Shown: in pieces, positions 49,641 to 64,000 of the stretch | Layout of the letters: each line of letters starts with the position of its first letter | How positions within the stretch are numbered: the first letter of the stretch is position 1 | NCBI GenBank assembly: GCA_902561155.1 | Contig: CACEOY010000006.1 | Location: forward strand, 1 to 64,000 | Length of the DNA: 64,000 nt | Source of the DNA: an uncultured Pelagibacteraceae bacterium | GTDB lineage: Bacteria; Pseudomonadota; Alphaproteobacteria; Pelagibacterales; Pelagibacteraceae | Reading direction: 5' to 3' | Notes under the pieces: generated by a model | Database searches by the model: none | What the model was told of the DNA's origin: nothing | What the model saw: only the letters and a program-made list of their open reading frames with translations | Position numbers and translations under genes: made by a program

Positions 49641-50156
49641 ATGAAAGATTTAAATAAAAAGTTTAAAGAGAAATTTGAAAACTTCTTTGATTGGATAAAA
49701 GGAGCAGAGCTTGTTGAACTTAAGTCGTGTAATCCTAATGAAGATCCAATTCGACCAGAGCTTAATAATGATTTTAGGACTAGTTATGGTCGTAAAATAT
49801 ATGGTGTGAAGTATAAAAATGAAATTTGTGCAATAATGTGCTTCGGTTTTACAAATGAAATACCTAAGTCTGTAAATGAATTGGATTTAATGACAAAAGA
49901 TGCACACTTACAAAGTATTAGAAGAGATCAAAAAGTTGGTAAAATAGCTATAGCTTACACTGTTTGGTCTAAAAAAAAAGGTGGAGGTAAGCTTATTGTA
50001 AAAGAGGTTTTTAAAAAAATTAAAAAATCTAATCACTTAAACAGATTAGTAACTCTTTCTCCATTGACTGATATGGCTAGAAATTTTCACTTAAGAAATG
50101 GAGCTATTGAGCTTCAAGTCAACAAAGAAACTCAAAATTTTGAGTACAAAATTTAA
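49641..50156 (+). CDS. Uncharacterised protein, possible GNAT-like fold
   Basis: A 171-residue soluble protein I cannot assign firmly. The middle has alternating strands (KIYGVKYKNEICAIMCFGF, about 50-68). The C-terminal half shows GKIAIAYTVWSKKKGGGKLI and LVTLSPLTDMARNFHLRNGA, which looks like the acetyl-CoA-binding helix and last strands of GNAT acetyltransferases; similar marine bacterial and phage proteins come to mind, unverified. It lies 77 nt after fabI and converges on pnp with 5 nt between. An AAAGG ribosome site precedes the ATG. Confidence 0.6.
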   Translation: MKDLNKKFKEKFENFFDWIKGAELVELKSCNPNEDPIRPELNNDFRTSYGRKIYGVKYKNEICAIMCFGFTNEIPKSVNELDLMTKDAHLQSIRRDQKVGKIAIAYTVWSKKKGGGKLIVKEVFKKIKKSNHLNRLVTLSPLTDMARNFHLRNGAIELQVNKETQNFEYKI

Positions 50157-50161
50157 ATAAT

Positions 50162-52234
50162 TTAAGCTACAGCTTGTTTAATGGAAAGTTTAACTTTACC
50201 TCTATCGAAACCAAGAACTTTGACTGATACCTCATCACCTTCTTTTACTACATCTGTCACCTTGGCTACCCTTTTGCCTGCAAGTTCAGAAATATGAACT
50301 AGACCATCTTGTTTCCCGAGAAAATTTACAAACGCTCCAAATTCCATAATTTTAACCACTTTGCCTTTATAAATTTTACCCACCTCAGGTTTCGCTATCA
50401 AACCTTTAATAATCTCAATAGCAGAGTTTCTTGATTTTTCATCAGGAGCAGCAACAGTCACTTCTCCTGTGTCCTTAACATCAACTTTTGCCCCAGATTT
50501 TTCAACTATTTCTCTAATAGTTGCGCCACCTTTTCCAATTACTGTCGCAATTTCTTTTTTATCGACTATTATTGTTTCTATCTTAGGTGTGTGTTTTGAA
50601 AATTCTTTTCTTGATGTTTTAATTGCTTTACTCATTTCACCTAAAATATGTTCTCTACCCTCTTTTGCTTGATTTAAAGCTTGCTCCATTATCTCAAAAG
50701 TAATTCCGGTTATCTTTATATCCATTTGCAAAGATGTAATACCGTCTTTAGTTCCCGCTACTTTAAAATCCATATCACCCAAATGGTCCTCATCTCCTAA
50801 AATATCTGACAAAACTGAAAACTTTTCTCCCTCTTTAATTAAGCCCATAGCTATTCCTGCTACTGGTTCTTTAATAGGCACTCCCGCATCCATAAGTGAT
50901 AAGGATGTTCCACACACTGTTGCCATTGAAGAAGAACCGTTTGACTCTGTTATTTCAGATACAACTCTTAAAGTATAAGGAAAGTTCTCTTTTAGAGGCA
51001 ATGATGAGTTAATAGCTCTCCAGGCAAGTTTACCATGACCTATTTCTCTTCTACCAGTACCAATTCTTCCGCATTCACCAACTGAAAAAGGAGGAAAATT
51101 ATAGTGCAACATGAAGCTTGATCTTTGCATGCCATCTAAACTTTCAAGTCTTTGTTCATCATCTGACATACCTAAAGTTGTTACCACTAGCGCTTGGGTT
51201 TCACCTCTTGTAAATAAAGCTGATCCATGTGTTCTGGGTAAAACACCTACTTCACACTCAATTTTTCTTACATCAGCGAGTCCTCTGCCATCAATTCTTT
51301 TTTTATCTTTTAATATTGCAGTCCTTACAATATCTTTTTCGAGAGATTTTAATTGTGCCATTGCTTGATTCTCTGTGACATTCTCATCATCTTTGAACAT
51401 GTCTTTACATTTAGAGTTTATTTCAGATATAGATGTTGATCTTTTTTTCTTATCAACTTCTTTAAATGCTTTTCTTAGATTGCTTTCAAATTCTTTAGCA
51501 ATTTTTTTCTTAAGTTCAGTATTATCAACTTCTTCGATCTCCCATTTTGGTTTACCAGCTTTCTTTGTCAATTTTTCAATTGACTCAATAATTGGTACAA
51601 ATTTTTCGTGTCCAAATTTTACTGCACCAAGCATTATTTTTTCTGAAAGACCAGAGGTTTCGGACTCTACCATTAATACTGCATCTTTTGTTCCAGCGAC
51701 CACTAAATCTAACTCTGAAGTTTTTAACTCTTCTTGAGACGGATTTAACAAATATTTCCCATCCTTGTATCCTACTCTGCTTGCAGCTATTGGTCCTTGA
51801 AAAGGAAGACCTGAAATACATAATGCAGCTGAAGAGGCAATTATAGATAATATATCTGGTTGATTTTCTCCATCATAAGATAAGACGGTTGGTAATAGTT
51901 GTACCTCATTCATAAAACTTGATGGAAATAAAGGTCTAATAGGTCTGTCGATTAATCTAGAAATTAAAGTCTCAGCCTCAGTTGGTCGGGCTTCTCTTTT
52001 AAAATAACCACCTGGAATTTTTCCAGCAGCATAATATTTTTCCTGATAGTTCACTGATAAAGGAAAATAGTCTTGACCTTCATTAAGTTTTTTTGCGCCA
52101 ACAGCTGTTGCGATAACGACTGTTTCACCTAATTTTGCTATAATAGCTCCATCAGCTTGCCTTGCAACCTTACCAGTTTCTAAAATTAGTTTTTTTCCAC
52201 CAAAATCTATTTCTTCTTTTTGAATTTTAAACAT
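50162..52234 (-). CDS. pnp: Polyribonucleotide nucleotidyltransferase (PNPase)
   Basis: A 690-residue phosphorolytic 3'-5' exoribonuclease. It has two RNase PH domains (about 1-220 and 310-545; the active one includes [19 protein letters not shown] and [17 protein letters not shown]), a KH domain with [12 protein letters not shown] (about 565-576), and an S1 domain (about 618-690; [15 protein letters not shown]). It degrades mRNA and can add 3' tails. It shares one base with rpsO at its start. Confidence 0.96.
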
Positions 52235-52494
52235 TATTTTCTCAAACTTAATTGTTTTATAATTTTTTCATATGAGTCAGGTTTTTTTCTTTTAAGATAA
52301 CTTAATAATTTTTTTCTTTTATTTACTGACTTTGATAAACCAATAGTTGAGTGTTTATCTTTTTTAAATTTTTTAAAGTGTATTGCTAATTTTTCTATTT
52401 TATTGCTAAGCAATCCGATTTGAATTTCAGCTGAGCCTACGTCTGACTTGTTTATAGCAAGTGACTTAATTATATCTTTTTTTGTTTGTTTCAT
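52234..52494 (-). CDS. rpsO: 30S ribosomal protein S15
   Basis: An 86-residue protein with the S15 signature segments: [20 protein letters not shown] (about residues 20-39), [25 protein letters not shown] in parts (about 45-69), and a final helix. It binds the central domain of 16S rRNA. The start codon lies 29 nt inside the end of rbfA, an unusually long overlap, and truB, the gene normally in between, is missing. Confidence 0.95.
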
Positions 52495-52867
52495 TTTTCT
52501 TATTTTCTTTTATTAATCTTTCAATTTTTTCTGCATATTCAAAAGATTTATCTTCAATAAAGTTGAGTTTTGGAAGAAACTTTAAACTTAGCTTTTTTGA
52601 CAAAGCTTTTCTAACAAGATGTGCGTTATCAGTCAATACACCAACAATTTCTTTCATATCTATACCGCCTAGTGGTATCACATAAACCCTAGCTGTTTTC
52701 AAGTCGGGGGTCATCCTTACTTCAGTAACCGTTATAAATCGCGAATTAAATGATGATATTTTTGTCTCGTTTTTTATAAAAATTTCACCAATGCTCTGCT
52801 TAACAAGTTCTCCAACTCTCAGCTGTCTCTGAGAATACCCTTTATTCGACAAGTCGCTATTAATCAT
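52466..52867 (-). CDS. rbfA: Ribosome-binding factor A
   Basis: A 133-residue protein with the RbfA pattern: SQRQLRVGELVKQSIGEIF at the N-terminus (about 12-30), ITVTEVRMTPDLKTARVYV (about 45-63), and LVRKALSKKLSLKFLPKLNF (about 83-102). It helps mature the 30S subunit and is linked to cold adaptation. It overlaps infB by 4 nt upstream and rpsO by 29 nt downstream. A lysine- and asparagine-rich tail makes up the overlapping part. Confidence 0.93.
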   Translation of the reverse strand: MINSDLSNKGYSQRQLRVGELVKQSIGEIFIKNETKISSFNSRFITVTEVRMTPDLKTARVYVIPLGGIDMKEIVGVLTDNAHLVRKALSKKLSLKFLPKLNFIEDKSFEYAEKIERLIKENKKNETNKKRYN

Positions 52868-55059
52868 ATAGTTCTTTCAATCTTTTCTATTTGGTATGAC
52901 TGTATTATATCTTTCTCTTTAAAATCTATAAAATCCTTCAAGCTTATCCCGCATTCCAAACCATTTTTAACCTCTTTGACTGCATTTTTTTCTCTAAAAA
53001 TACTTAGAATTTCTCCATCATAAACTATTGTGCCATCTCTTACTATTCTAGCTTTTGACTTATTTTGAATTTCTCCCTCAATTACTTTTGATCCAGCTAT
53101 TTGACCAAATTTTGAAACTTTGAATATTTTTTGAACTTCAGCTGAACCAAGAGAAACTTCTTTGATGTCAGGCTCCAAAAGTCCAGATAGTCTTTTTTCA
53201 ATATATTCAATTGCTTCATAAATTATATTGAAATATTTAATTTCTATTTTTTGTTCATCTGAAATCTTTTTTGCCTCTCTGTTAGCTTTCACATTGAAAC
53301 CAATCAATACAGCATCAGATGCTTTTGCAAGTGATACATCTGTTTCGTTTATCATTCCAATTTCTGACAATATAATTTTTGTTTTTACCTCGGGGTGTTC
53401 TATTTTTTCAATCGCCATTTTAAGAGCTTCACTAGAACCATGAACATCGGACTTGATTATAACATTTAGTTCTTCTTGGTCACTTCCCTTGTCAAATATC
53501 GTTGATTTGTCATTTAGAAGAATTTTCTTTTTGGAAGAATTTTCATTTTTAAATTTTGAAATTTCTTTAGCTTTATCTTCATCTTCAGTTACTAAAAATT
53601 CAGCGCCTGCAAAAGCTGTAGCGTTCATGCCTAAAATCTCAACTGGCATTGACGGGTAAGCTTCATTTATAGAAAGTCCATCGTGATTAATCATAGCTCT
53701 AATTTTTCCCCATGTTTTTCCGCAAACAAAGTAGTCACCTTTTTTTAATTTTCCGTTTGATACTAAAATTGTTGATACCGGTCCTTTACCTTTATCAATT
53801 TTTGATTCTATTACCACCCCAGTAGCTTTATCTGAAATTGAAGCTTTCAAATCTAATATTTCTGATTGTAGCAAAATACTTTCTTTAAGTTTATCTAAAT
53901 TAATTTTTTTTAAAGCAGAAACTTCTACAAACAATGTATCACCACTTAGATCTTCAGCTACAAGTTCATATCTCATTAAATCATTTTTTATTTTTGTAAT
54001 GTTTTTGTTTGGTAAATCTGATTTATTAATTGCAACAATTATTGGAACTTTTGCGGCTTTAGCATGATTTATAGCCTCTATTGTTTGTGGTTTAATTCCA
54101 TCGTCAGCTGCTACAACTAATACAACTATATCAGTAATTTTAGAACCTCTAGCTCTCATTTCTGTAAAAGCAGCGTGTCCGGGAGTATCGATAAAAGTGA
54201 TTAATTGATTATTTTCTGCTTTAACTTGATAAGCTCCTATGTGTTGAGTAATCCCACCAAATTCATTTGAAACAACATTTGTTTGTCTAAGCGCGTCAAG
54301 AAGCGAAGTCTTTCCATGATCAACATGTCCCATAATAGTTACTACAGGTGGTCTTTTTTCTATTGCTCCACTCATAGATTTATTTTTATTAATCTCTTCG
54401 GGGTGAGAGTTTTCAATTATTGCCTTGTGACCAAATTCTTTTACAATATATTCAGCGGTGTCTTTATCAATTGAGTGATTTATAGTTGCGATGACTTTCA
54501 TATTTAACAAAAATTTTATAATATCATTAGATTTTTCTGCCATTCTATTTGAAAGTTCTTGAATTGTAATTTGTTCAGGAATTTTTACTTCTTTTATAAC
54601 TTTTTTATATTCCTTTTTGTCTTCTGCCTCGGGACTATTCTTCTTTTCTTTAAGTCTTGCTCTTTTGACCGCTGCTAAACTTCTCTGTTTAATTTCTATT
54701 TCTTCAACATTTAAAGCTCTAGAAACAGTCAATTTAAAATCTCTTTTGTCTATAGGTGTTTTAAGTTTTAACTTACTTTTTCCAGTTGGTTTTTCATCTT
54801 TTTTTATAAATGCTTTGGTGGCTTGTTGTTCTATAAATTTTCTATTGAATTTTTTTCCTTTATTACTTTGATTTTTTAAGTTTTGACTTAAAGAATTGAT
54901 TTTTTTGAAATTCTTTGAAGGTTTGAATGAACTTTTTTTGTCATTTGGTATTGAAAACGATTTTTTGATTTCATTTTTTGATAGGTTATTTGAATCAATT
55001 TTCTTTTTAAAATTTGATGAAATTGTTAATGTTTTTTTCTTTTCTCTCTCTTTATCCAT
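52864..55059 (-). CDS. infB: Translation initiation factor IF-2
   Basis: A 731-residue translational GTPase. The lysine-rich, low-complexity N-terminal region (about 1-150) is shorter than in E. coli. An IF2-N motif ([13 protein letters not shown], about 165-177) follows. The G domain has [14 protein letters not shown] (G1), DTPGHAAF (G3) and NKSDLP (G4), followed by domains II-IV. It delivers initiator tRNA to the 30S subunit. It follows nusA by 3 nt. Confidence 0.96.
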
Positions 55060-55062
55060 AAC

Positions 55063-56616
55063 TTATTTAAATACAATATTTCTTGCAGACATTATTAGTT
55101 GATCTGCCTCCTCTCTAGTTAAAGAAAACTCTTCTAAATATCCTTGTAACCTTACCTTTTTACCTTTTACTTCGTCATACCCACCAACAAGTTCGTCTGT
55201 TGACAAATCGGCAAAATCAGAGAGTTTTTTAATATTTTTTTGCCCCAATATTACTAACATACCTTGTGTCATCCCTTTTAAATTAATTAATTCTTCTTCC
55301 ACACCTAATTCTTTAAGTCTTTTTCCAACTTCTTCTTTAACTTTTATTAGACTCTCTTTCGATCTTGAAATTAGCTCTTTTGCAGTTTCTTCATCTATAG
55401 CTTCAATTTTAGAAATATCTTCTGCATTGGCTTGGGATATCTCATCAATGCTTTGAAAGCCTTCGGAAACTAATAGCTGCCCTAAAGTTTCATCAACCTC
55501 TAAATTTTTTATTAAAGCTTCTGTTTTTTCTTTAAATTCTGCCTGTCTTCTTTCTGAGTCCTCTTTGTCTGTCAAAATATCAATTTCAAAATTTGTAAGT
55601 TTAGAAGCTAATCTAACGTTTTGACCTCTTCTGCCAATAGCTTTACTTAAATTTTCTTCACTTAAAATAACATCAATTTTTTTGTTAGATTGATCAATTA
55701 GAACCTTTTGTATTTCAGCAGGTGATAAAGACTCTGAAATAAGAGTTGGTAAGTCTTCAGTCCATTTTATAATATCAATTTTTTCACCATGAAGTTCATT
55801 TACAATTGTCTGCACTCTGCTCCCTCTCATTCCAACACATGCGCCTACAGGATCTATAGAAGTATCTTTAGAATAGACGCAAATTTTAGCTCTACTACCA
55901 GGATCTCTAGCAACTGATTTAATTTCAATTATTCCCTCATAAATTTCTGGAACTTCTTGAAAAAAAAGTTTAGCTAAAAATTGAGGATGGGCTCTTGATA
56001 AAAATATTTGATGACCTTTAAGTTCTTTTTTTACTTCGTAACAATATGCCTTAACTCTTTCACCAGTCTTAAGTACTTCTCTTGGAATAAGTTCATCTTT
56101 TTTAATAACTCCTTCCGCCCTTCCCAAGTCAACAATAACGTTGCCGTATTCTAGTCTTTTAATTATTCCACTTAATATAAGTCCTTGTTTATCTATAAAG
56201 TCCTCATACTGTCTATTTTTTTCAGCCTCTCTTACTTTAGAATTTATAACTTGTTTTGCACTTTGCGCCGCTATTCTTCCAAAATCTATTTGGGGAAGGT
56301 CTTCATAAATTTTATCACCTACCTTCAATGTTTCTGATTTATCATTGTTCATAGAATTTGCGTCTGTAAAGGTAATTTCGCGGCTAGGGTCTTCCACAGT
56401 TTCGACTATGTCTAGAACTTTTTGAATACTTATATTGCCAGTTTCCCGATCAATTTTTACAAGAATATTATTGTTCTGACCAAACTTTGTTAAAGCTGCT
56501 TTTTGTATTGCGCTTTCCATTGATCCAATTACGATATCTTTATCAATTGATTTTTCATTAGCTACCGCATCAACTATTCTCAATAATTCAAGTTTGTCCA
56601 ATCCTCTATTTAACAT
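55063..56616 (-). CDS. nusA: Transcription termination/antitermination factor NusA
   Basis: A 517-residue NusA: N-terminal RNA-polymerase-binding domain (about 1-130), S1 domain (about 137-200; GIIKRLEYGNVIVDLG), two KH domains (DPVGACVGMRGSRVQTI near 250 and EENLSKAIGRRGQNVRLAS near 320), and two C-terminal acidic helix-hairpin-helix repeats (about 365-510). It modulates pausing and intrinsic termination. A strong AGGAG ribosome site sits between the T-run of a terminator-like hairpin and the ATG. rimP, which commonly precedes nusA, is absent. Confidence 0.96.
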   Translation of the reverse strand: MLNRGLDKLELLRIVDAVANEKSIDKDIVIGSMESAIQKAALTKFGQNNNILVKIDRETGNISIQKVLDIVETVEDPSREITFTDANSMNNDKSETLKVGDKIYEDLPQIDFGRIAAQSAKQVINSKVREAEKNRQYEDFIDKQGLILSGIIKRLEYGNVIVDLGRAEGVIKKDELIPREVLKTGERVKAYCYEVKKELKGHQIFLSRAHPQFLAKLFFQEVPEIYEGIIEIKSVARDPGSRAKICVYSKDTSIDPVGACVGMRGSRVQTIVNELHGEKIDIIKWTEDLPTLISESLSPAEIQKVLIDQSNKKIDVILSEENLSKAIGRRGQNVRLASKLTNFEIDILTDKEDSERRQAEFKEKTEALIKNLEVDETLGQLLVSEGFQSIDEISQANAEDISKIEAIDEETAKELISRSKESLIKVKEEVGKRLKELGVEEELINLKGMTQGMLVILGQKNIKKLSDFADLSTDELVGGYDEVKGKKVRLQGYLEEFSLTREEADQLIMSARNIVFK

Positions 56617-56629
56617 TTTTAATTCTCCT

Positions 56630-56656
56630 AAAAAAAAATGGGCTAGTGCCCATTTT
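56630..56656 (-). terminator. Intrinsic terminator between metK and nusA, possibly a nusA leader attenuator
   Basis: On the minus strand AAAATGGGC pairs perfectly with GCCCATTTT around an ACTA loop (9 bp), followed by T; the 3' arm plus tail gives nine consecutive T. It lies about 52 nt after the metK stop codon, so it can end the metK transcript. The T-run ends only 13 nt before the nusA ATG, directly against its AGGAG site, so any nusA transcript begun upstream must read through it. Confidence 0.8.
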
Positions 56657-56708
56657 GTAGTTTCAAATTTTTACTTATTATTAAAGAAAAATTAAGGTTT
56701 TTTCAAGA

Positions 56709-57878
56709 TTACACCTTTTTAAAAAATGACGTTTTATCTGTTTTTTCCCAAGAAAATTCACCTTTATTTGTAGGTTTTCTCCCAAAGTGACCGTAGGATG
56801 ATGTAATCTCATAAATTGGCTTATTTAAATTAAGCAATTCTCTTATTCCCCGAGGTGACAAATCAAAATTATCTTTGATAATTTTTTCAACTTTAGATGT
56901 TTTGCTTTGATCTTTGTCTCCTAATTTTACATATATTGATAATGGCTTAGAAACTCCAATTGCATAAGATAGTTGGATCAAACATTTTTCTGTTAAACCA
57001 GATGCTACAATATTTTTTGCTAAATATCTTGAGACGTAGGCTGCCGAGCGATCAACTTTTGTAGGATCTTTGCCTGAGAACGCTCCTCCGCCATGTGGAG
57101 CGGCTCCTCCATAAGTATCAACAATTATTTTTCTTCCGGTTAGACCGGTGTCGCCATCAGGTCCTCCAATTATAAATTGTCCTGTAGGATTAATATAGAT
57201 TTCTGAATTTCGAAGATCACTCAATAATTCTTTCGGTATAGATTTATTTATGTAAGGCAGTATTAGTTGTTTTACCTTTTCTAGGTCCAAATCTTTAGAG
57301 TGTTGTGTTGAAATTACTACCGATGTTACTTTTTTAGGTTTTCCATTTTCATATAGCATTGTTACTTGACTTTTTGAGTCTGGTTCAATCCCTTTTAACT
57401 CTCCTGACTTTCTATCTTGTGCCATTAAGCGTAAGATTTTATGTGAGTAAAATATTGGCGCTGGCATAAAATCATCTGTCTCATTACAAGCGTATCCAAA
57501 CATAATCCCTTGATCTCCAGCACCCTCGTCTTTGTTGTCTTTTGAGTCTACACCCATTGCTATATCAGTTGATTGTTCATGAAGATGGGATTCAATTTTT
57601 GTTTGCTCTTTCCATGAAAAACCCTCCTGGTCATAACCTATATCTTTAATACAATTTCTTACTTTATCTATAATTTCCTCTTTACTAATATTTGGTCCTC
57701 TTATTTCACCTGCTAGAACAACTTTATTAGTAGTTGTTAAAGTTTCACAAGCCACTCGGGCGAAAGGATCTTTGGATAAATAACTGTCTACTACCATATC
57801 AGATATTCTGTCACATACTTTATCAGGGTGGCCTTCAGAAACTGACTCACTAGTAAATAAGTAATTTTTTTCAGTCAT
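56709..57878 (-). CDS. metK: S-adenosylmethionine synthetase
   Basis: A 389-residue MAT. Signatures: [20 protein letters not shown] at the N-terminus (residues 8-27), [12 protein letters not shown] (about 118-129), [21 protein letters not shown] in parts (about 243-263), and the P-loop-like [19 protein letters not shown]. It makes SAM from methionine and ATP. It overlaps the end of lnt by 8 nt, so no SAM riboswitch can precede it here; expression must come from the upstream lnt cluster or from within lnt. Confidence 0.97.
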
Positions 57879-59433
57879 TTTTTTTGTACTTTAGAAAGAT
57901 TAAACAATATGTAAATAAAAGGACAAAAAATATCAAATCATTTTTATTTCCATTATTCTTTTCTATTACCGGTAAACTGTACTCTAGATTCCCAGTTTCA
58001 TTGTTTTTTAGGCTTTTGATGATCTGTCCTTTATTATTTATTATAGCGCTTAATCCTTTATTTGCTGATCTTAAAACAAAAGAATCGCTCTCAATGGCTC
58101 TATAAATTGATTTTGAAAAATGCTGATACGGGCCAATAGAATCACCAAACCATCCGTCTTCTGAAATATTTATTAATAACGTTTTTTTTGATTTAATTTT
58201 TTGAATTAGTTCTGGAAAAATTATTTCATAACAAATTAAAGGTATTATATTTATTCCACTATATGAAAAAGTTCCATCTTTAGTACCTTTACTAAACGAC
58301 CCAAAACCCTCTGTAACTTTTTTGAGTCCAAATTTTTCCAATATATCATGAAAAGGTAAAAATTCTCCAAAGGGAACCAATTTAACTTTGTTATATTGAA
58401 ATATTTTATTTAAATTGTTGTCCACTAAAACAAAACTATTATAAAATTTATTTTCATTTTTATTTAAAGTATTTATTCCAAGAATAATAGAATGGTTGGA
58501 AGAAAAGTTTTCTTTTATTAAACTTCTATACTTCTCTATTTCGAAAAAATATTTTCCTGATAATGCGCCCTCAGGCCACACAAACAATGTTTTTTTATTT
58601 TTTTCAATATCACTATACTTAATGAGTTTTTTTATTCGTTCAGATGTTTCTTTATCAGATAAATAATATTTTAATTCAAAATTTGGTGAAACTATTTTAA
58701 TATTGATTTGATTATTTTCTTTAAGATAATTTTGACTGTTTATTTTGTAATTATTAAGTACATAATTTCCGTATATGTAGTTTGAAAAAAAAATTACTAA
58801 AAAAAAACTAGAAATTAAAGTTTTATATTTATATTTTTTAATAAAAAAAACACTTGGTATACAAAAAAAAGTTATTGTTAACAAATTAAATGCAAATAAA
58901 CCAATAGGGTTTAAAACTTGAATTATTTCAGTAAACCAGGACCAACTATAAGCCCAAAGATTCCAGGGGAACCCAGTTAGTAGTTTTGCTCTTAAATAAT
59001 CTACGGCAGACATTGTAGCACAAAACAAAAAGATAGACCCTAAATTGTAATTTAAATATTTTCCACAGATTAAAGAGCCAAATCCATAAAATAATCCAAG
59101 TGATAGGGGAAGTATTATAATTGTTAAAGGTATTAAACTCTTAAAGTATTCGTCAAATTGTAAAGAATTTGAAATCCAATACGTTCCTGTTAAGAAGAAA
59201 CCAATCCCAAAAAAATATCCTACATAAAATAAATTTATTAAATATGGTTTTTTTCTATATTTGTTTTTTGATCTCTTATTTATGTAACACAAAATAAAAA
59301 AAAGACACGGGAATATAAAAAAATTTATAAATGTATAATTGTATGGTTGAAAAGAAAAAACAGAAAGACAGCCCAATAAGAAAGGAATTATAAATACCAA
59401 TAGTACTCTATTGTTTATAAAAAAATTAATCAT
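57871..59433 (-). CDS. lnt: Apolipoprotein N-acyltransferase
   Basis: A 520-residue inner-membrane enzyme with about six helices (about 1-215) and a periplasmic nitrilase domain (about 230-485), then a last helix. The Glu-Lys-Cys triad is visible in [23 protein letters not shown] and [13 protein letters not shown]. It adds the third acyl chain to lipoproteins, relevant to the two lipoproteins encoded in this window. It follows ybeY with no intergenic base; corC, often between them, is absent. Confidence 0.93.
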
Positions 59434-59892
59434 TTAAATTAATTTGCTAAGCAATTTTTTTTCTATAGTATTCATTTTTTTGTAGTTACTATCTTTTTTA
59501 TGATCATGTCCTAATAAATGGACTAATCCATGTATCCATAATATATCAAAATGTTTTTTAAATAATTTTTTTGATGAAGTATTCATTTTTTTAAAATTAA
59601 TAATAATATCCCCTAAATATATTTCTAAATTCGATTTTGATAATATTTCAAGATCTTTTTTGTTTTGACTTGGAAAAGATAATATATCTGTTGTTTTATT
59701 TTTTTTTCTAAATTTTTTGTTAAGATGTTTTATTTCTTTTGTACCAGATAATAAAACACTAAAAAGATAATTTTTTTTATTTAAAAAATTATCTTTTTGA
59801 ATTACTTTAATTTTTTTTTTTAAGTAATTTTTTGGATTTTTAATAAATTTAAGCCAAGCTTTGTCTTTAACAATAACATTAATTTTAATCAT
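59434..59892 (-). CDS. ybeY: Endoribonuclease YbeY
   Basis: A 152-residue metalloenzyme, lysine-rich, with the zinc motif HGLVHLLGHDH (about residues 120-130) and the upstream KKTTDILSFP segment (about 65-74). It takes part in 16S rRNA 3'-end maturation and ribosome quality control. The start overlaps phoH by 8 nt, the usual phoH-ybeY partnership. Confidence 0.93.
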   Translation of the reverse strand: MIKINVIVKDKAWLKFIKNPKNYLKKKIKVIQKDNFLNKKNYLFSVLLSGTKEIKHLNKKFRKKNKTTDILSFPSQNKKDLEILSKSNLEIYLGDIIINFKKMNTSSKKLFKKHFDILWIHGLVHLLGHDHKKDSNYKKMNTIEKKLLSKLI

Positions 59893-60880
59893 TAATATTT
59901 TTGTTGAAAGCTTGAATAATTTTTGTAACTAAAGGATGTCTGACTACGTCTTTATGATCAAATTCGATTAATTTAATTTCTTTTACCTTGTTCAATATTT
60001 TCTTCGTTTTTATTAATCCTGATTGAGATTTATTTATTAAATCTATCTGTGAAGGATCGCCATTTACTACAATTTTAGAATTTTCACCTATTCTTGTTAA
60101 AAACATTTTAATTTGTGTAAGTGTTGCATTTTGAGCTTCGTCCAATATGGCAAAAGAATTTTTCAAAGTTCTTCCTCTCATAAATGCTAAAGGAGCAATT
60201 TCAATCTCTCCTGTCTCAATCTTTTTATTTATTTTTTCAAAGCCGAAGAGATCGTAGAGGGCGTCGTATAAAGGTCTCAAGTAAGGGTCAACTTTTTCTT
60301 TCATGTCGCCTGGTAAAAATCCAAGTTTTTCTCCTGCCTCTACAGCTGGTCTAGATAAAATTACTTTTTCTACTTTTTTTTCAAATAACATTGTCATAGC
60401 AACTGAAACTGCTAAAAAACTTTTTCCTGTTCCAGCGGGTCCTAAAGCCATAGTTATGTCGTTATTTGTTAAAGCTTTAATATAGTCAGACTGCTTTTTA
60501 GATCTCGCTATTACTGTTTTTTTTGGAGTTTTTATTAATTGACCAAAATTATGAATATTGGATTTAAAATTTTTATTTTTTTCTTTCAAGGATAACAGCA
60601 AGTCTTGTTTTTCAATAATGTTAGTCTTCAAATATTTGTTTATCAAAAATTTAATAGCATCAGATGCTTTATTTGTTTCTTCAGGGCTGCCTTTTATGGT
60701 GATTGAATTTCCTCGAAAAAATATCTTTGACTTAGTCAATTTTTCTAACTCATTTAAATTACTATTAAATTCTCCTACAACTGATACTAAAATATCATTA
60801 TTATGAACTTTAATGTTAGTCGTTTCTTTATCTATTTTTTTTATACTGTAATTCTGGTCAAGGTTTTCAATTTTAGACAT
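59885..60880 (-). CDS. phoH: PhoH-family ATPase (YbeZ-like)
   Basis: A 331-residue protein with an N-terminal KH-like segment (about 28-90) and the PhoH P-loop domain: Walker A GPAGTGKSFLAVSVA (about 147-161), SRPAVEAGEKLGFLPGD, and Walker B FAILDEAQNAT. It is a putative RNA helicase/ATPase that associates with YbeY. It lies between miaB and ybeY with 2-8 nt spacing or overlap. Confidence 0.93.
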   Translation of the reverse strand: MSKIENLDQNYSIKKIDKETTNIKVHNNDILVSVVGEFNSNLNELEKLTKSKIFFRGNSITIKGSPEETNKASDAIKFLINKYLKTNIIEKQDLLLSLKEKNKNFKSNIHNFGQLIKTPKKTVIARSKKQSDYIKALTNNDITMALGPAGTGKSFLAVSVAMTMLFEKKVEKVILSRPAVEAGEKLGFLPGDMKEKVDPYLRPLYDALYDLFGFEKINKKIETGEIEIAPLAFMRGRTLKNSFAILDEAQNATLTQIKMFLTRIGENSKIVVNGDPSQIDLINKSQSGLIKTKKILNKVKEIKLIEFDHKDVVRHPLVTKIIQAFNKNIND

Positions 60881-60882
60881 AT

Positions 60883-62238
60883 TTAAGCTGCAAGAGAGTT
60901 GTCTGTATTAATTAATTCACCATAGATTGTGTGTTGAGAAGTTTTTTTTATAAGTACTCTTTTTTCTTGCCCAATAATGTTTTTCTTTGAGAAAACTATA
61001 ACTGGGTTATGATATTCATCCCTTCCAAAGTATTTATTTTTTTCTTTGATCATTTTATTCTCAAATAATACTTTTACAACTTTATCTAAAAGTTTTTTTT
61101 TATAGTTAGTCTTGATTTTTTCAGCAAGATTTTGAAAGATTGTAAGTCTCTTTTGGGCTAAATTTTCATCAACCATTTTCATGTCACCAGCTGGTGTACC
61201 AGGTCTAGGGCTAAAAATAAAAGAGTATGAATTTATAAATTTTACATTTTCCATTAATTCACAAGTTTGATTGAAGTCCTCTTGTTTTTCACCAGGATAA
61301 GCAATTATAAAATCACTAGCAAATTCTAATCTTGGATTTTTTTCCTTTAAAGTGTTAATAATTTCTAAATATTCTTTTTTGTTATGTTTTCTATTCATGC
61401 TTTTAAGCATTTTATCAGAACCTGATTGAACGGGAAGATGTAATAAAGGCATAAGTTTGGAGCATTTTTTATGGGCCTCAATTAAATCTTTTGTCATATC
61501 TTTGGGGTGAGAAGTATAGTATCGAATCCTTTTTAGATCTTTTTTTTTCTGTAGAGCATGTATTATATCAGATAATCGGTTGTCTTTATCATTGTAGGCA
61601 TTTACATTTTGACCTAACAAAATTATTTCTCTTGATCCGTTACTTATAAGCTCTTCTGCTTCATCTAAAATTTCTTTAAAGTTTCTTGAATATTCTGGGC
61701 CTCGTGTATAGGGGACAACACAAAATTTACAGAATTTATCACAACCTTCTTGTATTGTTAGAAATGAAGAAATTTGAGAATTATTATTTTTTATAAATTT
61801 AAGTTCATCAAACTTTTTTATAGTTTCAAAATTTGTGATATCAAATTGTTTATTTTTATTTTCTATATCTTTTATGACTTTATTTATAGATTGATAGGAC
61901 TGAGGACCGATTACTGCATCCACATATCGATCTTTTTTTAAAATTAAATCTCCCTCAGCCTGAGCAACACATCCGGCAATGATAAGAATGGGTTTTTTTT
62001 TATTTTTATATTCTTTCTTTACTCTACCTACATCATGAAATACTTTTTCAGTCGCCTTTTCTCTAATATGACAAGTATTAATTATATAACAGTCTGCCTC
62101 TGCTTTTTTTTTCGTCGGAAAATAATTAATTTGCTTAGTAATATCAAAAATTCGGTTGCTATCATATTCATTCATCTGACAACCAAAAGTTTTTATAAAT
62201 ATTTTTTTTTTCAAATTACTTTTTATTTTTTGATCCAT
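60883..62238 (-). CDS. miaB: tRNA-2-methylthio-N6-dimethylallyladenosine synthase
   Basis: About 451 residues from ATG 62238 (an upstream in-frame codon at 62274 lies deeper in fur and is less likely). N-terminal UPF0004 domain with FIKTFGCQMNEYDS and NTCHIREKA. Radical-SAM cluster in EGCDKFCKFCVVPYTRG. C-terminal TRAM domain (about 385-445). It methylthiolates A37 of tRNAs reading UNN codons. It overlaps the end of fur by 23 nt. Confidence 0.95.
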   Translation of the reverse strand: MDQKIKSNLKKKIFIKTFGCQMNEYDSNRIFDITKQINYFPTKKKAEADCYIINTCHIREKATEKVFHDVGRVKKEYKNKKKPILIIAGCVAQAEGDLILKKDRYVDAVIGPQSYQSINKVIKDIENKNKQFDITNFETIKKFDELKFIKNNNSQISSFLTIQEGCDKFCKFCVVPYTRGPEYSRNFKEILDEAEELISNGSREIILLGQNVNAYNDKDNRLSDIIHALQKKKDLKRIRYYTSHPKDMTKDLIEAHKKCSKLMPLLHLPVQSGSDKMLKSMNRKHNKKEYLEIINTLKEKNPRLEFASDFIIAYPGEKQEDFNQTCELMENVKFINSYSFIFSPRPGTPAGDMKMVDENLAQKRLTIFQNLAEKIKTNYKKKLLDKVVKVLFENKMIKEKNKYFGRDEYHNPVIVFSKKNIIGQEKRVLIKKTSQHTIYGELINTDNSLAA

Positions 62239-62641
62239 AAAGCTCAAGTTTATGGTCCACCAAATTATAACCAAGTTTTTTTGCTATTTTAATTTGCAAT
62301 TCTTCGATATCTTTGTCCACAAACTCAATTATTTCTCCAGTATTAATATCAATTAAATGATCATGATGTTCATCTGTTGAGGGTTCATATCTTGATTTAC
62401 CTTCCTTAAAATCATGTCTCTCAATTATTCCGGACTCTTCAAATAATTTTAAAGTTCTATAAACTGTAGCTATACTAATTTTTTTATCTAATAAAGTTAC
62501 TCTTTTATGCAACTCGTCAACATCAGGATGATCTTTAGAGCCAAAAGTTAACTTTGACTCCGACATTACTTTGGCTATTATCCGCCTTTGCTCAGTAAGT
62601 CTTACTCCTTTTTTTTTACATTTTTCTTCAATAACACTCAT
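62216..62641 (-). CDS. fur: Ferric/manganese uptake regulator Fur (Mur type)
   Basis: A 141-residue Fur-family regulator: winged helix with TEQRRIIAKVM and SIATVYRTLKLFEESGII (about residues 56-73), then metal-binding HHDHLID (H92, H93, H95) and a C-terminal ELYGSK tail. No CxxC zinc pair is present, as is usual for alphaproteobacterial Fur/Mur. It controls iron or manganese uptake. This is a second Fur-family gene besides the Irr-like one. It starts 18 nt after tsaB. Confidence 0.92.
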   Translation of the reverse strand: MSVIEEKCKKKGVRLTEQRRIIAKVMSESKLTFGSKDHPDVDELHKRVTLLDKKISIATVYRTLKLFEESGIIERHDFKEGKSRYEPSTDEHHDHLIDINTGEIIEFVDKDIEELQIKIAKKLGYNLVDHKLELYGSKNKK

Positions 62642-62659
62642 TATTATTTTAAAACCCTT

Positions 62660-63040
62660 TTATAAATAAATTGGATTTACCATTTTATTTTCTAATTGTT
62701 TATTTTTTATCAAATTCTCAATAGTTTCAAGTTTTAATTCTGATAATTGAGAATTTTTATAGCCATATAGTTTAGAACCATGAACAATTTGGATTCCTTT
62801 TGCCACAGATAAAGATATTCTGACAGAAGAATAGCTCCCAGGCCCCATATTAACTATTATGGAGTACTTATTGCTTAATTTAACTTTATGTTTTTTTATA
62901 AAACCAATAATATTACTAACAAGGAGATTATTGGAATTAATATTGTTTTGTAATTTTTCTGTAAAGAATTTATTATCAAATTTTAAACCTATTGAATTAT
63001 TATTGCCAGTGCAGTTAATTATTAAAAAATTATTTATCAT
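62660..63040 (-). CDS. tsaB: tRNA threonylcarbamoyladenosine biosynthesis protein TsaB, minimal form
   Basis: Only 126 residues, against about 200-230 for usual TsaB. The N-terminal ASKHA-like half is recognisable: FLIINCTGNNNSIGL, then MGPGSYSSVRISLSVAKGI (about residues 66-84), the family's core motif. After about residue 100 the protein jumps to a short lysine-rich stretch and the terminal NPIYL, which resembles the usual C-terminal end of TsaB. The second half therefore seems deleted internally rather than cut off. TsaB scaffolds TsaD in t6A synthesis; its partner gene tsaE is in the window. rimI, a frequent neighbour, is absent. Confidence 0.82.
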   Translation of the reverse strand: MINNFLIINCTGNNNSIGLKFDNKFFTEKLQNNINSNNLLVSNIIGFIKKHKVKLSNKYSIIVNMGPGSYSSVRISLSVAKGIQIVHGSKLYGYKNSQLSELKLETIENLIKNKQLENKMVNPIYL

Positions 63041-64000
63041 TTTTTTATTTATTTTACCTTTTAATTTTAGTTTGCACTCATCCGAATTAGCTGTAGATGA
63101 CTTTGGTATAATTACTATAATGTATCATCGATTTGAAGAAAATAAATATCCCTCAACAAATATAAAAATTGATGACTTCAAAGAGCATATTGAGTTGATA
63201 AAAAAAGATGATATTAGATTTGTAAATCCCTCAAATTTTGAAAATGAACTAAATAATAACAAAAAGGAGAGAAAAATACTTATTACAATAGATGACGGAT
63301 ATCAGTCTTTCTATGATAATGCTTGGCCAATTCTTAAAAAAGACAAAATCCCTTTCATCTTATTTGTAAGTACAAGAGAAGTGGGGAAAAAGGGATATAT
63401 GAGTTGGAAAAATATTAGAGAAATAGAGCAATATGATTTTGTTGAAATAGGAAATCACAGCCATACCCATGATTATCTAATTGATTTTGATGAAAAAGAA
63501 ATTCAAAATGATTTAGCAACGTCCATTAAAATATTTAAAGAGGAACTTGGTAAAAATTCAATTTTTTTTTCTTACCCGTTTGGTGAATATAGTGTTAATT
63601 TAAAAAATATTGTAATTGATCTAGGTTTTAAATATGCATTCGGTCAACACTCTGGTGTCACTGATTACACTAAAAATTTGTTTGAAATGCCAAGATTTCC
63701 AATTAATGAAAAATACGGAGAAATAGACAGATTTAAGACAATATTAAAAACTTTGCCGTTTCCCTATAAATCAATTCAACCAGAAGAGAGGTACATTGAT
63801 GATGCAAACAATCCACCGAAAGTGAATATTCAATTTTATGATAATCTAAGTAATTTAGAAAATATTAACTGTTTTTCCAATGAAGAAGATAAGTGGAGAA
63901 ATTCAAAAATAAGATTTAATGGTGAGAATAATTTAAATATAAATTTAGAGGGAAAATTTATAACGGAACGCGGTAGAATAAATTGTTCTTTAAGAGAAAC
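63009..64000 (+). CDS. Secreted polysaccharide deacetylase (NodB-type), truncated by the window edge
   Basis: An open frame continues past the right edge. With a GTG start at 63009 it begins with a good signal peptide (lysines at residues 6-7, hydrophobic core FIIFLFILPF). The first ATG, 63120, would remove it and cut into the MYHRF strand. NodB motifs are present: ITIDDGYQ (metal aspartates), GNHSHTHD (histidines) and YPFGEYS. It should remove N- or O-acetyl groups from a surface or wall polysaccharide. After about residue 250 a further domain of unknown type begins. The GTG start overlaps the divergent tsaB start by 32 nt. Confidence 0.82.
   Translation, partial: MQLIIKKLFIIFLFILPFNFSLHSSELAVDDFGIITIMYHRFEENKYPSTNIKIDDFKEHIELIKKDDIRFVNPSNFENELNNNKKERKILITIDDGYQSFYDNAWPILKKDKIPFILFVSTREVGKKGYMSWKNIREIEQYDFVEIGNHSHTHDYLIDFDEKEIQNDLATSIKIFKEELGKNSIFFSYPFGEYSVNLKNIVIDLGFKYAFGQHSGVTDYTKNLFEMPRFPINEKYGEIDRFKTILKTLPFPYKSIQPEERYIDDANNPPKVNIQFYDNLSNLENINCFSNEEDKWRNSKIRFNGENNLNINLEGKFITERGRINCSLRE

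Follow-up and report, generated by a model that had tools for sequence, protein, structure and literature searches.

On the minus strand of the window, by which we mean the whole 64,000-nt stretch of Pelagibacteraceae DNA analysed here, a short hairpin and a run of nine T end just before the start codon of nusA. The position raises a question: does this element close the transcript of the upstream gene, metK, or does it control the operon that begins with nusA? An initial annotation had proposed the latter, with NusA possibly setting its own level, and had named the former as the alternative.

Architecture of the nusA leader

The initial annotation described a 9-bp stem and nine T ending 13 nt before the nusA ATG, and this is exact (minus strand, 56656–56630; ATG at 56616). 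The relevant features of the window are listed below; the genes were assigned by domain search, which also confirmed lnt in the window.

56709–57878, minus strand: metK, the upstream neighbour of nusA in the window
56677–56706, minus strand: promoter-like element TTGAAA-18-AATAAT, 10/12 matches, between the metK stop and the hairpin
56635–56656, minus strand: terminator-like hairpin AAAATGGGC-ACTA-GCCCATTTT, 9 pairs (4 G-C), 4-nt loop
56656–56648, 56647–56644 and 56643–56635, minus strand: 5′ arm, loop and 3′ arm of this hairpin, respectively
56630–56638, minus strand: nine-T run, its first four T within the stem; predicted 3′ end of the terminated transcript
56625–56629, minus strand: Shine-Dalgarno-like AGGAG, adjoining the end of the T-run
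55063–56616, minus strand: nusA, 517 aa, with N-terminal, S1 and KH domains
52864–55059, minus strand: infB (IF-2)
52466–52867, minus strand: rbfA
52234–52494, minus strand: rpsO (S15)
50162–52234, minus strand: pnp

From nusA to pnp, the genes are joined by a 3-nt gap or by overlaps of 1 to 29 nt. As listed, the rpsO reading frame shares 29 nt with the end of rbfA (52466–52494). Typically, ylxR sits between nusA and infB, and truB between rbfA and rpsO; besides the missing rimP, the stretch from 52234 to 56616 has no room for these two genes at the nusA/infB and rbfA/rpsO junctions.

The stem core of the window hairpin is GGGC/GCCC, the type found in rimP-leaders. A 35-nt piece carrying the hairpin folds at -11.9 kcal/mol, against a mean of -4.06 kcal/mol for dinucleotide shuffles, none of which (0/200) does as well. 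Taken as a whole, the 113-nt spacer shows no unusual degree of structure, as 19 of 200 shuffles fold equally well, and a loose terminator-pattern scan of positions 50000–64000 returns 3 sites, compared with a shuffle average of 4.5. With the spacer fold and the loose scan both unremarkable, it is the long T-run and the conservation described below that set the element apart from chance.

Four sites in the 64 kb satisfy a strict scan (stem of at least 6 pairs, 3 or more of them G-C, and a T-run of 5 or more); the three besides that at nusA are within ORFs, and their T-runs number 5. Across the 967-kb assembly (83% complete), ATGGGCNNNNGCCCAT was found once and the looser pattern GGGCN{3,6}GCCC at three places. 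In a full-length fold, the T-run and the ribosome site also pair with the -35 region; we set this structure aside, the -35 stretch being upstream of the predicted start.

Transcription would begin about 7 nt past the promoter-like element of the window, hence about 14 nt before the stem, giving a leader of some 40 nt that takes in the whole T-run. A leader of this length would be too small for a riboswitch, a leader peptide or an antiterminator.

Conservation within Pelagibacterales and linkage to nusA

We compared 120 leaders: that of the window, those of 79 of the 80 closest nusA loci, and 40 from genera g2–g8 of the same order. The remaining close locus was left out, its contig beginning 3 nt ahead of the nusA match. 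The 40 loci were sampled out of 183 genomes of the order with nusA, genera g9 and g10 being outside the sample. One leader (L069) is identical to another (L065) and was dropped from counts of distinct leaders, which leaves 119.

The GGG[C/T]/GCCC core is present in 120/120 leaders, across 8 genera and 2 families. The T-run counts exactly nine in 119 of them and ten in the last one, and lies 9–26 nt from the start codon. The comparison across SAR11 that the initial annotation had called for shows hairpin and T-run to be strongly conserved. Among the 79 distinct leaders formed by the window and its closest loci, 21 of the 23 columns of stem and T-run are invariant, including the entire 3′ arm and, in the 5′ arm, the inner seven columns; the outermost two bases of the latter arm show identities of 0.81 and 0.95, and the loop columns 0.40–0.83. 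For comparison, fourfold-degenerate sites of nusA have a mean identity of 0.379 for the same set, with none (0/78) invariant.

Between the families, the stem undergoes a paired change: AAAATGGGC/GCCCATTTT versus AAAGTGGGT/GCCCACTTT, the latter in 14 loci, with a G-U intermediate in 3 loci. We counted these changes on the hairpins directly, since a MAFFT alignment of 14 leaders shifts the stem of family f2 by one column. The core is shorter in the four g5 loci, with nine T directly after it. In six loci (L124 and L125 of g2, L127–L130 of g5), the hairpin and the nine T are kept without a clear Shine-Dalgarno sequence before nusA.

Which gene does the element accompany? metK is found upstream of the hairpin in 99 of the 120 leaders, window included (98 by motif, L086 by inspection). 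The gene upstream of the other 21 (in g2, g4, g5, g7 and g8) carries a TrmB-like PDPW motif in 21/21 cases; a PF02390 match was obtained in all five such genes tested, one per genus. The nine T are kept at all 21 TrmB-like-linked loci. The hairpin being retained with nusA where metK is not upstream, we conclude that the element follows nusA, not metK; the link to metK that would mark an ordinary metK 3′ terminator is lacking.

Promoter-like elements were sought between the upstream stop codon and the hairpin with a TTG-based rule (spacing of 15–19 nt, at least 8/12 matches). They occur in 111 of 119 leaders, compared with 21.8 expected from single-base shuffles, an expectation that ignores kinship. 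The eight leaders without one are both of g2, that of g4, three of the four of g5 and two of the closest set. Spacers in g2, g4 and most g5 loci measure less than 40 nt, which means that any promoter would have to reach into the gene upstream. The -10 hexamers that score best in the metK-linked genus are poor, most commonly TTTAAA at a spacing of 15. Transcripts that start at such elements, upstream of the hairpin, must cross it.

Two further terminators of the same genome served as controls, both between genes, of which the livK-like and TRAP binding-protein ones were named by reading their translations:

G000:C3:125034–125045, minus strand: hairpin GGGGGC/GCCCCC with T8 (L154), between a livK-like gene and a csaA-like gene (PF01588 tRNA-binding domain)
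G000:C12:8794–8805: strong hairpin with T7 (L156), between a TRAP binding-protein gene and dctQ (PF04290)

The comparison used the 30 best matches of each search, minus one csaA-like and two dctQ loci that had no usable start. Among these, nusA has one stem arm in 27/30 and nine T in 29/30. At the csaA-like gene, 22 of 29 usable loci share one arm, T-runs range over 6–9 and 3 loci are without a hairpin; dctQ has 13 arms as called, a count that is partly an artefact of stem extension, and T-runs of 7–8 in 28 usable loci. Both stem and loop are more variable at dctQ than at nusA, and the dctQ hairpin perhaps sets differing expression levels inside its operon. The nusA hairpin forms folded from the window's genus give -10.8 to -11.9 kcal/mol, versus -16.3 to -18.3 kcal/mol for the controls, and the nusA T-run is longer than in nearly all control terminators.

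Conservation of the stem is thus partly a general trait of SAR11 terminators, with nusA the extreme of the three. As the two controls are also fairly conserved, we rejected conservation as sole proof of regulation. Closeness of terminator and start codon was rejected as evidence too: the csaA-like hairpin ends 13 nt before its gene, the same geometry as at nusA with a stronger stem. The initial annotation was right that no space for a promoter is left after the nusA hairpin; since the csaA-like gene shares this geometry, the lack of space is not diagnostic.

Apparent RimP loss and the choice of effector

Naville and Gautheret (2010, PMC2965389) describe the rimP-leader as a premature terminator, with a GGGc(...)gCCC stem and a U-stretch, in the leader of rimP-nusA-infB. 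By their account it is the most ubiquitous transcription attenuator; the terminator lies 4–130 nt from the first start codon and has no antiterminator. Weighing two effectors, RimP and NusA, they favoured NusA. The SAR11 element has the stem, the U-stretch and the 4–130 nt distance to the gene start of this class. It departs from it in the operon that follows: rimP is first there, and here nusA-infB come without it.

This absence extends over the order. The Pfam domain RimP_N was found in 0/197 of its genomes and the C-domain of RimP in 0/15; 149 of the 197 have a completeness of 90% or more and a contamination of 5% or less. Positive controls match in 10 of 14 genomes in each search, Caulobacter included, and RimP is present in 170 of 192 genomes of a sample of the class Alphaproteobacteria.

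We then considered leaders outside the order. In 40 alphaproteobacterial loci with rimP just upstream of nusA (L174–L213), the pattern GGG[C/T]...GCCC followed by at least 4 T is found on the 5′ side of rimP in 22, and on the opposite strand in 5; by the same rule, 18 of the 40 have no leader motif. Escherichia coli, with the gene order rimP-nusA-infB, carries GGGCTTTAGGCCC and T7 directly before rimP. We also took 13 rimP-less alphaproteobacteria with nusA from outside the order, after removal of L160, L167, L171 and L172, where rimP is present. Five of them (G331, G440, G455, G363 and G418) have a clear hairpin and T-run at most 200 nt upstream of nusA, with the exact GGGC/GCCC core in G418 only. 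Two (G322, G429) have weak or distant hairpins only, and six have none. The leader hairpin can therefore outlive rimP, yet often does not.

Four other explanations have to be weighed. If the hairpin were the 3′ terminator of metK, nusA being fed via read-through, it would end metK transcripts in the 99 leaders where that gene is upstream. We nevertheless hold this to be quite improbable: hairpin and nine T persist at 21/21 TrmB-like-linked loci, the same motif precedes rimP in other alphaproteobacteria and in E. coli, and the stretch from metK to the hairpin holds promoter-like elements. The 21 loci thus disfavour termination of metK, the alternative offered by the initial annotation, as the reason for conservation; with metK upstream, such termination may occur as a by-product. 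Hairpins close to the 5′ end are generally known to be able to protect mRNA, and the element could likewise serve stability or processing at the 5′ end, without termination. Such protection needs no T-run, and the nine T in 119 of 120 leaders make this explanation very improbable.

The remaining two explanations accept an attenuator and differ as to its effector. Feedback of RimP on its own leader, which Naville and Gautheret (PMC2965389) held possible, has a negligible chance of applying here: RimP is undetectable in 197/197 genomes of the order and the leader is kept, so RimP can hardly be the effector there, short of a RimP so diverged that Pfam misses it. IF-2, S15, PNPase or hairpin-melting cold-shock proteins (by antitermination) might act instead, the operon then answering to cold or to the state of translation. 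infB, rpsO and pnp are indeed retained in the window operon, and Csp antitermination was proposed for the E. coli operon (Bae et al. 2000, as cited in PMC6511841). The data presented in PMC6511841 do not fit it at that operon, however, the effector reported for Bacillus subtilis is NusA (PMC12288461), and the predicted 14 nt or so before the stem would offer little room for a protein site or an antiterminator. We regard an effector other than NusA as unlikely.

The explanation that we favour, and consider likely overall, is a minimal attenuator of the rimP-leader type immediately ahead of nusA, which probably places nusA-infB-rbfA-rpsO-pnp under a feedback loop of NusA. It builds on what can be read from the sequences: the hairpin, its conservation and linkage to nusA, the promoter-like element and the undetectable RimP. 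Hairpin and nine T would form a promoter-proximal, factor-dependent attenuator of this operon, and a rimP-leader-type terminator would stand directly before nusA because the order is without rimP. RNA polymerase would start at a promoter just past metK (or the TrmB-like gene) and make the leader of about 40 nt. The GGGC/GCCC hairpin would fold, with release of the polymerase at the U-tract in some rounds. NusA on the elongating polymerase would raise the released fraction: when plentiful, the operon would be cut short, and when scarce, it would be read through.

Of the autoregulatory attenuator first proposed for this locus, an attenuator in the leader is upheld by comparison, namely by the linkage to nusA, the upstream promoter-like elements and the published class; the role of NusA is one that we infer. 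Termination at the SAR11 leader and partial read-through would be parts of the same scheme. With RimP undetectable and a NusA feedback in B. subtilis, NusA appears to be the best candidate and most likely the effector.

One may go further, though with less than even confidence. In the streamlined SAR11, the rimP-leader may have been cut to about 40 nt, its most conserved parts being the GGGC/GCCC hairpin and nine U, and kept after the loss of rimP under the control of NusA only. The order would then be a natural deletion experiment, and the NusA-polymerase complex might read the sequence of the hairpin, not just its stability.

If true, SAR11 would show that the effector of a widespread attenuator is NusA and not RimP: an abundant ocean lineage with the leader, and without detectable RimP, would separate the two with no experiment needed. 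The leader would also provide a very short natural construct for testing how NusA recognizes terminators, and would represent one feedback that strong genome streamlining apparently spared.

Relation to known leaders

No Rfam family matches the window at the gathering threshold. At a permissive E-value there are 26 matches, all under the family cut-offs, and RF01770 alone fits in strand and context: its weak match, on the right strand at 56715–56633, scores 17 bits against a cut-off of 47, for a model that is gammaproteobacterial. The main text of Meyer et al. (2009), on RNAs of P. ubique, mentions none of nusA, metK, infB and rimP. Excerpts of PMC8060035, PMC12448304 and PMC10319736 contain nothing bearing on an element in the nusA leader. 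Apart from PMC2965389, whose supplements possibly list it, the SAR11 element is unreported in the titles and abstract starts among the matches listed.

In B. subtilis, NusA is described as autoregulated via NusA-stimulated termination in its own leader (2025 review PMC12288461; primary work by Mondal et al. 2016). The likeness lies in a leader terminator with NusA as its effector. That system was studied by experiment, whereas control by NusA in SAR11 is deduced; the B. subtilis leader is given as 180 nt (PMC2965389), compared with a predicted length of about 40 nt here.

The E. coli operon metY-rimP-nusA-infB has the terminators t1 and t2 and is said to be regulated by NusA, its transcripts rising upon impaired NusA termination (PMC6511841). 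It resembles the SAR11 operon in having a leader hairpin with a T-run, in E. coli GGGCTTTAGGCCC and T7 ahead of rimP, and in the control by NusA that would be common to both. It differs in having two terminators before rimP, several promoters, an upstream tRNA gene, and rimP itself. A reporter of the E. coli rimP leader plus ORF fell, rather than rose, in a Rho mutant (PMC7815308), and control there is therefore not simple.

The closest relation is with the rimP-leader: both have the form of a premature terminator with a conserved core and a U-stretch, in the leader of a nusA-infB operon. In contrast to that class, the SAR11 element stands directly before nusA, in an operon that has no rimP and a genome where none is detectable. 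This kind of attenuator is known; the variant found here is its rimP-less form before nusA.
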